Source: a virus. From it: a stretch of DNA of 28,105 nt. This document shows, one piece after another, positions 922 to 27,431 of the stretch; position 1 is the first letter of the stretch, and the number at the start of each line of letters is the position of its first letter. A model generated the notes under the pieces. It had not been told where the DNA came from, ran no database searches, and saw only the letters and a program-made list of their open reading frames with translations. Location: positions 1 to 28,105 of the IMG/VR virus record IMGVR_UViG_3300024475_000024, one strand, 5' to 3'. The position numbers and the translations under genes are program-made.

Positions 922-2463
922 TTACCTTCTTCCGTTTACTGCATACTCTATTACAACAGCGTCCAATGAAAATGGTGGATTTACATCATTTGATGTTAAT
1001 GAAATAGATGCGTTGTATCCTGAACCAATAATCTGTGTCTCTAGAATATTATCCACGTTACCTGAACCATATGTAGCTGAACCATATACAGCAGTAGGCG
1101 AACCAAATCTAAAAAAGTTACTAGTATTATTTGCTAATGGGATTGCATTAGGTTGAATAACACCAGTATTAAATCTATCAAAGTCTAATACTAATTGAAA
1201 GTCTACTTCAACTGAACCTGTAGGGTCTGTATACAGGTGTGCCTTATAAAATGTCTTACGTAGTCTAGGGTCTTGAAAAGTTAAAAACGGACTATCAAAT
1301 ACTGCATTAATATTTTGACCATCAAAGCTACTACCTTGCTCTAGTCTATAAACATAGCCATCATCATTAGCAAAGTAAATACGTTCTTCGTCACCTACAT
1401 ACTCACTGAAACTTACACGAGCATTAATACCACGTGTTTCTGCCCAAGCAAACTGGCTTTCACCTATTTGTGCGCCTAGTATTCCAAGACTAGCTTGATC
1501 TGATACACCAGTAGAATATCCGCAGATTCTGTATTGACTTTTGTTTCTTACGATTAATGAACAAAATCCACTAACACTATTTACAAAAGAAGTTATCTGA
1601 GACTGAATAGACTTAGATAGAACAGCCAAGTTAAAGTCACCGATTCTATCAGTCGCAGCTAATGTACGTAAGCCATCTGGCCCCAGAAATATTACGTCAC
1701 CACCAACTTCTTGTACTGTATCTGGTTGAATAGCACCCAAATCTTCTGAGACAGAAACAAGAACAAAATCAGCAGCACTGAAACCTGATATTCTTTTAAT
1801 CTTAGTTTGACTAAAAATAATAAGCTGTTCACGAAATACTACTAAATCAGTAATAGTGTCTGCGATATTAATTACACCGCCGCCTAAAGCAACAGAAAAT
1901 TCATTGTCTTCATATGGAGCAGAGAAGAATAGGTTCTGTCCATTAGCAACAAACAAGTGATTAGCAAACGGTATTACAAAGTCACAACCAGTAAAGTCCC
2001 CACTTAAACCTGTAAGCTGTGTTAGGGTAGAAGCATTATCGTCAAAGATAAAAGGTTTACTTGCACCGTCTACGATAAATAGTTTTTCGTTGCCATCAAA
2101 ATCATACTTAGCAAAACGTACGATGTTAGAGCCACTAAGAGTAATGCCTGCACTAGAGTATGCAACATTATTTGTAATTTGTGTCCAGCCACTGCCTGAT
2201 GATCTGTATAATTCATTACCTCTAGCAGCATATATACGCCCATTATAATATGTAATGCCACGAATAATACCTGAACCTGCAAGTGCATTTGTATCGTGTT
2301 TTACGTAGCCTTGTATCTTTCTGTAACCACCTTCTACTGAGGGTTCAAAGTTACGTAATACTCTAGCACTACCGGGTTTGTTAATGCCTTGTTGTAAAGG
2401 ACTAAGGTTAGTAATAAGACCTTCACTAAACTCTATCGGATATGTAAGCCATGAATCAGGCAT
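922..2463 (-). CDS. Tail hub/nozzle protein (P22 gp10-like or T7 gp12-like)
   Basis: The product is 513 residues, close to the size of P22 gp10 (packaged-DNA stabilisation hub, about 470). Its layout is similar: an N-terminal segment with a conserved G-SARVLRNFEP stretch, then a beta-rich body with repeated hydrophobic strands (IRGITYYNGRIYAARGNELY, NEKLFIVDGASKPFIF, NHLFVANGQNLFF, LIIFSQTKIKRISG) that suggests a propeller. It probably forms part of the short tail that closes the portal channel. The adaptor-like gene lies just upstream, as in podovirus head-completion modules. The 61-base gap before it carries a promoter matching the capsid promoter, and AGGAAAT precedes the ATG. A T7 gp12-type nozzle is the main alternative. 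The family is inferred by pattern only. Confidence 0.65.
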   Translation of the reverse strand: MPDSWLTYPIEFSEGLITNLSPLQQGINKPGSARVLRNFEPSVEGGYRKIQGYVKHDTNALAGSGIIRGITYYNGRIYAARGNELYRSSGSGWTQITNNVAYSSAGITLSGSNIVRFAKYDFDGNEKLFIVDGASKPFIFDDNASTLTQLTGLSGDFTGCDFVIPFANHLFVANGQNLFFSAPYEDNEFSVALGGGVINIADTITDLVVFREQLIIFSQTKIKRISGFSAADFVLVSVSEDLGAIQPDTVQEVGGDVIFLGPDGLRTLAATDRIGDFNLAVLSKSIQSQITSFVNSVSGFCSLIVRNKSQYRICGYSTGVSDQASLGILGAQIGESQFAWAETRGINARVSFSEYVGDEERIYFANDDGYVYRLEQGSSFDGQNINAVFDSPFLTFQDPRLRKTFYKAHLYTDPTGSVEVDFQLVLDFDRFNTGVIQPNAIPLANNTSNFFRFGSPTAVYGSATYGSGNVDNILETQIIGSGYNASISLTSNDVNPPFSLDAVVIEYAVNGRR

Positions 2464-2479: not shown

Positions 2480-2513
2480 ACTATAGTTTTACATATTTAA
2501 CTTGGTTTGTCAA
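2480..2513 (-). promoter_or_regulatory. Candidate promoter of the hub/fibre genes
   Basis: On the minus strand TTGACA (2508-2513) is followed after 16 bases by TAAAAC (2486-2491) and directly by TATAGT (2480-2485). The same arrangement precedes the capsid gene, including an 11-base match of the form GTAWAACTATA. A start site near 2479-2481 would give a leader of 16-18 bases that begins almost at the AGGAAAT ribosome site of the hub gene. It could be read by host sigma70 polymerase (TAAAAC as -10). A phage single-subunit polymerase is less likely but possible, because the ACTATAG ending resembles T7-type promoters. Confidence 0.65.
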
Positions 2514-14415: not shown

Positions 14416-15474
14416 CTAGGCGAGGTTGTACACGGCGTTAACAAGAGCCTCTGGACGCAAGATTTTGCGACCATAGAGATGCATACCACGTACGATGTCA
14501 GCAAAGCTGTCAGGGTCACGGTAAGTCTCAGTCTTGTTAATCTGCTCTGCAGTAGCAACAGCAGAATCATGTCCACCAACAATCACACCCATGTTAGTAG
14601 CATTGGTGCCGCCAGTTGTGGCAGGACCAGTACCAAGTACAGGAAGGTTGTTAGACATGTACACACGGAAACCGTGTAGGTTGTTCAGAACCAGACCGTT
14701 CTGCAGACCTGAACCACCGAAGTCTGCATTCAGAAGACGTGAATCCTCATCCTTCAGAATCTCCAGCATTACAGGATCAATCACGAGCCATCGACCACGA
14801 GTGTCAACATTCTGTTGATCGAGGATACGAGCCATACGTGCAATGATTTGCAGTGGGTTAGCAGTACCAGTAGCAGAAGGTACACCTGAAGTGCCTGCAC
14901 GTGGAATGATGCCAATTGACTGTGCAGCAAGACCCGCATTAAAGTCAGACGCATCCAACTTATTAGCGGCAAGAAGTTCGTCAGAACCTGCAGCAGCGTT
15001 AGCCTTAGTACCATTCACAGTTGTGTTCACAGTGTCTGCGTTTGAATGCAGAGCAGCCTGCTTGTAACCTGACAAGTAACCAAGAACGTCTTGGTCAAAC
15101 TGGTCAGCCAACCGGTATGCAGCACGATCTGATGACAACTGCTGGAAGTTCACATGTGAGTGTGCTTCTTCAATGTCATCGACCTTGAATGCAAAGTAGT
15201 TAGCCTTGTCAATGGTCAGCGAGAAGTCATCGTCAGCAATCGCCTGTGGAACAATGGTTGTACCACGGAGATATGCATTAACTGAAATCTCTGGTTCTTT
15301 GATGATTTTAACGGAATCACCCATGTTGGCGATTTCGCCAAAGTAGTCTGAGTTAGTAATCCCCTCACAAACAGCGGCCTTGCGGAAAGCAAGTTGCACC
15401 TGTTTGGAGTAAATTACTGGTGAGAAGTTGCCGTTTGGAAGGTTATTCCATCCGACTGCGCTACCAAATGCCAT
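14416..15474 (-). CDS. Major capsid protein
   Basis: The 352-residue product begins MAFGSAVGWNNLPNGNFSPV and contains features of marine-phage HK97-fold capsid proteins: a helical IYSKQVQLAFRKAAV segment, a GDSVKIIKEPEISVNAYLRG strand pair, and an IDKANYFAFKVDDIEEAHSH segment before a long helix rich in LADQFDQDVLGYL. The C-terminus has a LNNLHGFRVYMSNNLPV strand, typical of the A-domain. It lies directly after the scaffold gene and is the only head gene with its own promoter, a structured leader and a strong terminator, as expected for the most abundant virion protein. TAGGAG precedes the ATG. Size fits the 320-430 residue range of this fold. Confidence 0.9.
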   Translation of the reverse strand: MAFGSAVGWNNLPNGNFSPVIYSKQVQLAFRKAAVCEGITNSDYFGEIANMGDSVKIIKEPEISVNAYLRGTTIVPQAIADDDFSLTIDKANYFAFKVDDIEEAHSHVNFQQLSSDRAAYRLADQFDQDVLGYLSGYKQAALHSNADTVNTTVNGTKANAAAGSDELLAANKLDASDFNAGLAAQSIGIIPRAGTSGVPSATGTANPLQIIARMARILDQQNVDTRGRWLVIDPVMLEILKDEDSRLLNADFGGSGLQNGLVLNNLHGFRVYMSNNLPVLGTGPATTGGTNATNMGVIVGGHDSAVATAEQINKTETYRDPDSFADIVRGMHLYGRKILRPEALVNAVYNLA

Positions 15475-15557
15475 GTTAATTTCTCCTATTAAGCATTAGT
15501 TACAGATGCAAACTAAACAATCTTCGCAGAGGCTGATACATTTTTGGGTGTGTATCT

Positions 15558-15665
15558 TAGTTAGGTGGCCGCCCAACTAGTCAACAGGCCAAAACAATCA
15601 GGTAATCTTAGATTTTATTGTCGTTTGCGGATTGTTGTGTAAGCAAGTAGCTATCCTGCTTACAC
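15558..15665 (-). promoter_or_regulatory. Structured 5' leader of the capsid mRNA (two stem-loops)
   Basis: The roughly 200-base leader between the capsid promoter and its ATG holds two inverted repeats. The first, GTGTAAGCA (15637-15645) with TGCTTACAC (15657-15665), is a perfect 9-bp stem with an 11-base loop, only about eight bases from the expected 5' end. The second (15558-15579) pairs TAGTTGGG with CCTAACTA, using one G-U pair, around a six-base loop. A stem at the extreme 5' end commonly protects mRNA from decay, so stabilisation of capsid mRNA is the likeliest role. Neither stem has a U-tail. Confidence 0.6.
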
Positions 15666-15673
15666 TACATGTG

Positions 15674-15707
15674 ACTATAGTTATACTTAGAAACAACTAT
15701 TTGTCAA
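15674..15707 (-). promoter_or_regulatory. Capsid gene promoter
   Basis: On the minus strand TTGACA (15702-15707) is followed after 16 bases by TATAAC (15680-15685) and directly by TATAGT (15674-15679). The hub promoter at 2480-2513 has the same spacing and the same GTAWAACTATA block. It lies in the 240-base gap between scaffold and capsid genes, the largest gap inside the structural block. The expected start site is near 15673. Confidence 0.75.
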
Positions 15708-26803: not shown

Positions 26804-27018
26804 GTCTTCAATCCTTCTGGTATTGTAAGTGGTAGTTGAGTTGTCAGGCACGTAGCTGACCAGTCTACTATTTCTCCACTAGCTATTCTAGGTCTATGCA
26901 TCTCACGTACAATCTCTAAAGTAGGACATTCAACTACATTACGTGCGTAAGACTTTAGTTCTCCATCCGGCAGTACGATCACGGAGAAGAATACAAAAAA
27001 GGTATAAAGTTCCATCAC
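26800..27018 (-). CDS. Small protein with hydrophobic N-terminus and Cys pair
   Basis: The 72-residue product begins with a hydrophobic segment (LYTFFVFFSVIVL) that looks like a signal anchor. A polar body with NVVECPTLEIVREMHRPRI and WSATCLTTQLPL follows. The two cysteines lie 25 residues apart, as in the peptide at 24675-24854 (26). The start is GTG at 27018, overlapping the previous stop as GTGA, or the ATG one codon later; AAGGA serves either. It is probably membrane-tethered with its Cys pair outside. Function unknown. Confidence 0.6.
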   Translation of the reverse strand: MMELYTFFVFFSVIVLPDGELKSYARNVVECPTLEIVREMHRPRIASGEIVDWSATCLTTQLPLTIPEGLKT

Positions 27019-27236
27019 TCATTTCCTTCACTCCACCCTTCTAAACGCATATAATCCTCTGTCTCTTTTAGAGTAAAGGTACGTGGGGTAAACTTAGCCT
27101 CCAATGCACTGCGCACGTAGAATACGTCACTGTGAGGAATATGAAGACGGTCTAATGAATTGGTACGGATGGCATCATAGAATGCATCAAGTACATTATC
27201 TGTGTATAGTTTTACGGATTTCTTTGTCAATGTCAA
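27015..27236 (-). CDS. Small conserved protein, first gene of the leftward operon
   Basis: The 73-residue product reads KKSVKLYTDNVLDAFYDAIR, LDRLHIPHSDVFYVRSALEA and KETEDYMRLEGWSEGNE, a compact helical protein. The only in-frame starts are TTG at 27236 or TTG at 27230; there is no ATG before the body and only weak ribosome-site similarity. Those TTG codons coincide with TTGACA boxes of a candidate promoter, so the exact N-terminus is uncertain. It overlaps the next gene by four bases. It is the first gene downstream of the strong promoter at 27403-27431. Function unknown. Confidence 0.6.
   Translation of the reverse strand: MTLTKKSVKLYTDNVLDAFYDAIRTNSLDRLHIPHSDVFYVRSALEAKFTPRTFTLKETEDYMRLEGWSEGNE
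27203..27236 (-). promoter_or_regulatory. Third match to the phage promoter motif
   Basis: TTGACA (27231-27236), 16 bases, TAAAAC (27209-27214), then TATACA (27203-27208) on the minus strand share the GTAWAACTATA block and the exact spacing of the capsid and hub promoters. However, it falls inside the first codons of the 27015-27236 gene, so it is either an internal promoter or a chance match. Confidence 0.4.
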
Positions 27237-27260: not shown

Positions 27261-27383
27261 ATATCACTTATGTGTTAGTTAAGTGTACAGTTAAGTGTAT
27301 TAACAAAGAAAATGTAATAGTAGTTAAGTGTACATATAAGTGTTATTATAGTTTTATTAAGGAACAGTTAAGTGTATCACTTA
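27261..27383. repeat. Phased TAAGTG repeat cluster (operator- or iteron-like)
   Basis: TAAGTG occurs at 27280, 27292, 27325, 27337 and 27369, and inverted (CACTTA) at 27265 and 27378. Four copies share a longer core GTTAAGTGTA (27278, 27290, 27323, 27367). Within groups the copies are 12 bases apart; groups start 45 and 44 bases apart. The last forms a dyad, TAAGTG-TAT-CACTTA (27369-27383). A further near-match in the opposite orientation lies at 27991-28000. The cluster is just downstream of the consensus promoter, so binding by a repressor or activator is the likeliest role. A replication origin with iterons is the alternative. Confidence 0.7.
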
Positions 27384-27402
27384 TATGTTCTAGTTATATA
27401 TA

Positions 27403-27431
27403 ATTATACCAGATTTTGTCAAGCCTGTCAA
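27403..27431 (-). promoter_or_regulatory. Full-consensus sigma70-type promoter for the leftward operon
   Basis: On the minus strand TTGACA (27426-27431) is separated by exactly 17 bases from TATAAT (27403-27408), a complete match to the bacterial consensus. A second TTGACA (27417-27422) lies inside the spacer. The start site would be near 27396, giving a leader of about 160 bases that contains the TAAGTG repeats before the first gene. Confidence 0.85.

Follow-up and report, generated by a model that had tools for sequence, protein, structure and literature searches.

Sequence evidence for a conserved, group-specific bipartite promoter in HMO-2011-type phages

The window, i.e., the whole stretch of 28,105 nt analyzed in this study, contains three copies of the element TTGACA-N16-TAWAACTATA, which, judged from sequence comparison, is a real and conserved bipartite promoter that is specific to one phage group, the HMO-2011-type phages. 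We consider it probable that this element is the promoter of a small regulon and that the host RNA polymerase reads it by means of the housekeeping sigma70. The window corresponds to the structural half of an HMO-2011-type phage, with Puniceispirillum phage HMO-2011 and the Roseobacter phages CRP-1 and CRP-345 as its best relatives. Such phages are a dominant marine viral group (PMC9038755). In HMO-2011, the plus strand carries the replication genes and the minus strand the structural genes, and because of this layout the promoters described here are called ‘late’ and would act late.

The motif and its distribution

The three copies and the open reading frames (ORFs) to which they belong are organized as follows.

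2482..2513, minus strand: predicted tail/hub promoter, 18 nt before the ORF at 922-2463 (exact match; equivalent position in 3 IMG/VR contigs, where 17-19 nt separate it from the homologue)
922..2463, minus strand: tail/hub ORF downstream of this promoter copy (ORF call; homologues in scan contigs; the function name is that of the preliminary description)
15676..15707, minus strand: predicted coat-gene promoter, TTGACA-N16-TATAACTATA, with a G preceding the -10 box (exact match; orthologous sites in relatives)
14416..15474, minus strand: coat protein ORF (tblastn against annotated coat proteins, 80-82% identity to HMO-2011 and CRP-345)
27205..27236, minus strand: predicted promoter on the start codon of the gp71 homologue, TTGACA-N16-TAAAACTATA, with a G preceding the -10 box (exact match; 152/155 gp71 loci)
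27015..27236, minus strand: ORF homologous to HMO-2011 gp71 (homology and family alignment; 73 aa from the TTG of the -35 box)

All three copies are exact and lie on the minus strand, against a chance expectation of 0.00 in the window (100 dinucleotide shuffles). The 11-base block GTAWAACTATA is likewise present exactly three times, each time with TTGACA upstream at the motif spacing, and allowing up to one mismatch gives six matches compared to 2.15 expected. The preliminary description had proposed a shared phage promoter motif, with TTGACA, equal spacing and this block common to the capsid and hub sites, and the exact matches confirm this proposal. The third match that it placed at 27203-27236 is an exact motif at 27205-27236, located on the gp71 start codon and not before a gene. 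A scan of related genomes could have shown no enrichment; instead, the motif was found to be enriched and conserved there.

Among 80 metagenomic (IMG/VR) coat loci, 73 carry TTGACn-N16-TANAACTA 178-264 nt upstream of the start codon, with a spacer of 16 in every case. Of the remaining seven, five have TTGACA-N17-TATAACTG and two are truncated at the contig end. A C at -7 is present at every coat and gp71 site that matches the pattern, as well as in the five spacer-17 coat loci. The base following TATA varies among the 57 distinct coat sites (T 24, G 22, C 6, A 3; two sites have no TATA).

A search of 19 named phages, allowing up to two mismatches to the motif, revealed exact copies in HMO-2011, CRP-1, CRP-345, CRP-2, and CRP-603, located upstream of the coat gene or at the start of gp71; all five phages have an orthologue of the coat promoter. 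Near copies are present in CRP-207, CRP-13, and CRP-9, and HTVC115P, HTVC103P, and phiM6 have two-mismatch matches only. No match within two mismatches was found in CRP-212, CRP-235, CRP-738, CRP-3, HTVC033P, MQM1, and CHOED; a looser scan gave one TTGACA-N17-TATAACTA in HTVC033P. The ten motif-bearing genomes have TATAAC, TAAAAC or TACAAC 37 times after TTGACA (spacing 15-18), 26 of them at spacing 16, and TATAAT six times, compared to eight occurrences of TATAAT, all at spacing 17, and two of TATAAC (spacing 15-18) in the eight other genomes. Phages of host strain FZCC0040 are found on both sides of this divide (CRP-207 versus CRP-3, CRP-212, and CRP-235). They also differ before the coat gene, with TACAACTATA and N16 in CRP-207 and other boxes or spacers in CRP-3, CRP-212, and CRP-235. 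Since the host strain is the same, the host alone does not set the promoter form.

An unbiased exact scan of a viral contig collection returned at least 120 contigs, and 118 of the 120 listed encode HMO-2011-type proteins. The canonical control of equal shape, TTGACA-N17-TAWAATTATA, gave such proteins in 26 of 120 listed contigs, and for the unchanged -10 block at spacer 17 the figure was 73 of 120; each of the three scans returned at least 120 contigs, and it is their make-up that is compared, not their totals. The listed contigs of the exact scan contain 126 sites, of which 122 fall to four genes: coat (78), gp71 (38), tail/hub (3), and gp13 (3), with four sites unassigned. As a 32-base signature that is nearly exclusive to the group, the motif would provide a first map of the transcription units of HMO-2011-type phages.

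Of the 120 listed sites of the spacer-17 block, 55 precede gp13. In six phages, a looser scan located a plus-strand relative of the motif that has a spacer of 17 or 16 and sits at the 3′ end of the gene for the DNA polymerase.

HMO-2011 10304, CRP-1 12503, CRP-345 13358, CRP-207 11260, CRP-2 12686, CRP-603 12610, plus strand: relatives of the motif as predicted gp13 promoters

The -35 box of this predicted gp13 promoter falls within the final codons of that polymerase gene, a second overlap of promoter and code beside that at gp71.

Leader RNA of the coat gene

The coat motif is followed by a covarying RNA, for which two features were delineated.

15472..15675, minus strand: structured 5′ leader of the coat mRNA, 204 nt, reaching to the coat start codon (covariation, 13 sequences; fold z-score -2.66)
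15637..15665, minus strand: 5′ hairpin of the leader, beginning 10 nt past the promoter motif (12 pairs, 7 of them changed on both sides)

The alignment comprises the 13 well-aligning leaders out of 78 with the promoter. The fold combines the 5′ hairpin with a branched core, and 16 of its 37 pairs are changed on both sides. Its covariation score is 0.384 versus 0.182 in shuffles, none of 500 shuffles reaching the observed value, and drops to 0.05-0.11 when the fold is slid. Searching 942 kb of named phages with the leader model recovered the coat leader in all nine motif-bearing phages, with E-values including 7.2e-30 (HMO-2011), 0.026 (CRP-207), and 0.74 (CRP-603), and the motif-less phages yielded nothing up to E 1. 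The search in coat loci took in 37 of 80 and matched 23. Rfam returned no match at E 1 for the whole window, and chance-like matches only for the leader. We regard the coat leader as a strong candidate for a novel structured RNA of phage origin. As it starts just past the coat motif, it also gives independent, indirect support for a transcription start at the motif, and the coat promoter would feed this leader.

Short conserved blocks (ACC, GCC, CACC) can also be aligned upstream of the coat gene in motif-less phages and in phiM6; these are missed by the leader model.

The gp71 start codon and the upstream promoter

The gp71 promoter is conserved by constraint at the DNA level within the coding sequence. 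Of 155 gp71 loci, 152 have the motif positioned on the start codon; five of an initial 160, with a match beginning at or next to the contig edge, had been dropped (L316, L322, L323, L364, L418). The three misses form one lineage and have the motif immediately downstream of the gp71 stop codon. In both the gp71 and the coat profiles, most spacer positions are less informative than the boxes, and some of the conserved columns are set by the anchoring pattern; counts of misses are the fair measure.

The gp71 homologue likely starts at codon 3 of the ORF. An ATG lies 6, 9 or 12 nt from the first -35 base in 49, 10, and 2 of the 81 distinct gp71 windows, respectively, and 20 have no ATG at these distances. 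The start codon has moved by 3 or 6 nt in some lineages, with a spacer that is still 16 nt (152/155, a length required by the search pattern). The promoter bases within gp71 double as codons for V/I-K/Q-L-Y. The Leu codon of the promoter is CTA in 78 of the 81 distinct windows; elsewhere in these ORFs, Leu is encoded by CTA in 106 of 616 cases. The distinct HMO-2011-like gp71 sequences are invariant for GTA and CTA (64/64 each), as they are for a few other codons, e.g., ACA at codon 12; these counts come from related sequences and are not independent events. At this start codon, a protein code and a predicted promoter are conserved in the same bases across more than 100 loci.

A scan for promoter boxes identified further elements upstream of gp71.

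27399..27431, minus strand: predicted upstream canonical promoter P1, TTGACA-N17-TATAAT-TATA
27389-27422, minus strand: TTGACA-N18-TATAACTA, overlapping P1

P1 is of the TANNAT type in 60 of 61 distinct HMO-2011-like loci. In the CRP-207 branch it is mostly TATAAC with a different discriminator, often TGCG (C only in 45 of 55 loci, both in 3, T only in 2, no match in 5). We therefore dropped the idea that late promoters can always be told from early ones by a C at -7; it is true in the HMO-2011 branch, but the P1 of the CRP-207 branch is mostly of the C type.

In the proposed mechanism, P1 would let gp71 be transcribed, while the motif acts as a second promoter, P2, which in most lineages lies on or just behind the start or the end of gp71 and would give transcripts that skip the gp71 start codon. 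Such a handover from P1 to P2 fails in CRP-9, CRP-13, and the Manatee Spring phage, in which the motif precedes gp71 (an exact copy about 400 nt upstream in the latter), and the notion that P2 always excludes gp71 was rejected.

Between P1 and gp71, at 27262-27390, there are several copies of TTAAGTGT- and ACACTTAA-like repeats, also in inverted orientation, and similar strings occur at the same place in HMO-2011, CRP-1, and CRP-345. These are possible operator or origin repeats.

Recognition of the motif and the proposed regulon

The regulon would comprise four sites. One coincides with the start codon of gp71, two precede the coat and the tail/hub gene, respectively, and the fourth lies between the DNA polymerase gene and gp13. 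Four operons of an abundant ocean phage group would share a bipartite promoter that hardly varies. Such repetition of one invariant element before phage operons is shared with the late promoters of T4 and the phi promoters of T7. T4 late promoters (TATAAATA, gp55) have no -35 element, and T7 phi promoters are contiguous and need a single-subunit polymerase. The motif, in contrast, has a TTGAC -35 element (73/80 coat and 152/155 gp71 loci) and is bipartite. The word ‘promoter’ occurs 0 times in the main text of PMC9038755, PMC6918029, and PMC8528129, genome papers from a literature search that took in few subscription journals.

The preliminary description had set two readings against each other, host sigma70 and a phage-encoded polymerase or sigma factor. 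The host RNA polymerase with sigma70 is the most likely reader, and the element looks like a promoter for it that is kept in an unusually strict form belonging to this phage group. This reading is better supported because the element consists of two boxes, the -35 box being perfect, around a spacer whose sequence varies, and because no single-subunit polymerase was found in 17 relatives. Region 4 of sigma70 would contact TTGACA and region 2 TANAAC, at a spacing within the range of about 16-18 that is typical of sigma70. The T at -7 (TATAAT), another sigma70-type feature, is replaced by C. PMC8407463 reports that more than 60% of alphaproteobacterial sigma70 promoters have no -7T, that A, C, G, and T are about equally frequent at this position with a modal spacer of 17, and that CarD stimulated several promoters without -7T in vitro. 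A C at -7, which fits the A/C/G of CarD-stimulated promoters, is therefore ordinary in Alphaproteobacteria, and host sigma70, probably with CarD, would need nothing new. The motif resembles these promoters in being bipartite, with a TTG-type -35 and a C allowed at -7, but has both the C and the spacer of 16 fixed, which is stricter than host practice (PMC8407463). It also agrees with the Caulobacter RpoD consensus TTGaCgS / GCTANAWC in that TANAWC fits TANAAC and TTGAC fits the phage -35 box, but it has no GC before TANAAC and has an extra TATA behind it (PMC8144410). In seven host-type genomes (2.0-3.4 Mb each), the total of TTGACA-N15-18-TANAAY is no higher than that of the reversed pattern; this comparison shows no host preference and does not bear on the base at -7. 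With its perfect -35 box, a spacer of 16, the C at -7 and a TATA discriminator, the motif is far stricter in form than promoters of this kind generally, and host sigma70 with CarD leaves the fixed C, the spacer of 16, and the TATA unexplained.

Recognition of the element by a phage RNA polymerase of the T7 single-subunit type, or by a sigma factor of the phage, is extremely improbable. The block does extend past the -10 box, and the ACTATAG ending noted earlier is present at the capsid and hub sites, two of the three in the window, but it is not conserved in the coat sites of relatives, of which just 22 of the 57 distinct ones have the TATAG start region of T7-type promoters. The element is furthermore bipartite with a variable spacer, and the single-subunit polymerase domain PF00940 was detected in 0 of 17 relatives, with T7 as a positive control (E 9.9e-110); a T7-like polymerase was accordingly rejected. 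A sigma-like gene, for which the preliminary description had suggested looking elsewhere, did not emerge either: Sigma70 region 4 is found in no motif-bearing relative, which led us to reject a phage sigma factor of known type. A match below the cut-off (E 2.3e-5) was seen in the motif-less CRP-212 only (L168; 52190-52291, minus strand), in a 224-residue open frame near the genome end. It is also highly unlikely that the block serves as the binding site of a phage repressor or regulator, an operator superimposed on ordinary promoters. Integrases occur in some phages of the group (PMC9038755 and this analysis), so that repressors are expected. Against this, the window has no exact block without TTGACA at the fixed distance, the TAAAAC form of the block is not palindromic, and the -35 box and spacing are as conserved as the block; spacing and the lack of isolated blocks led to its rejection.

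A phage accessory factor could retune the host sigma70 holoenzyme to this promoter class, for which gp71 is the best candidate; we regard this as a tentative and rather unlikely reading. Equally doubtful, gp71 may be a new factor of 70-90 residues, unlike known families, that locks the holoenzyme onto TTGACA-N16-TANAAC-TATA, and the promoter on its start codon would turn gp71 off once the late programme starts. In a presence profile of the 74 HMO-2011 genes (gp54 and gp73 left out; blastp, 72/74 proteins, 18 genomes), gp71 and gp64 are the only proteins present in all 10 motif-bearing and 0 of 8 other genomes, and tblastn of the gp71 homologue against 50,697 phage records hit 10 records, all of motif-bearing phages. 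The group-exclusiveness of the motif (118 of 120 listed contigs) is in line with such a factor, and CRP-9 and CRP-13 keep gp71 and a form of the motif despite a foreign replication module (PMC8528129). Conversely, gp64 and the whole late module track the motif too, and the P1 of the CRP-207 branch is itself of the C type (45/55), so that the host polymerase would need to read it unaided. Comparison of gp71 with Pfam, PHROGs, and PDB sequences gave no match or weak, inconsistent ones, with no convincing DNA- or RNA-polymerase-binding family. A first structure model was poor (pLDDT 58.5) and a second fair (80.4); no PDB fold was matched at E 0.001, and a second look gave at most Z 2.6. In a viral structure library, S4T7R2 (E 4.8e-4) and A0A6J5NMS2 (E 0.0078) match best; no function is named for either. 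Finally, gp71 is strictly confined to motif-bearing phages according to blastp and tblastn, but not according to a profile search, which revealed short, diverged gp71-like ORFs in four of the eight motif-less phages.

CRP-212 48965-49222 (L168), CRP-3 47147-47404 (L177), CRP-738 47320-47580 (L174), CRP-235 47438-47680 (L171): gp71-like short ORFs

These four ORFs are without the N-terminal part, and TTGACC followed by TAYAA[TC] is located before their start codon, not on it.
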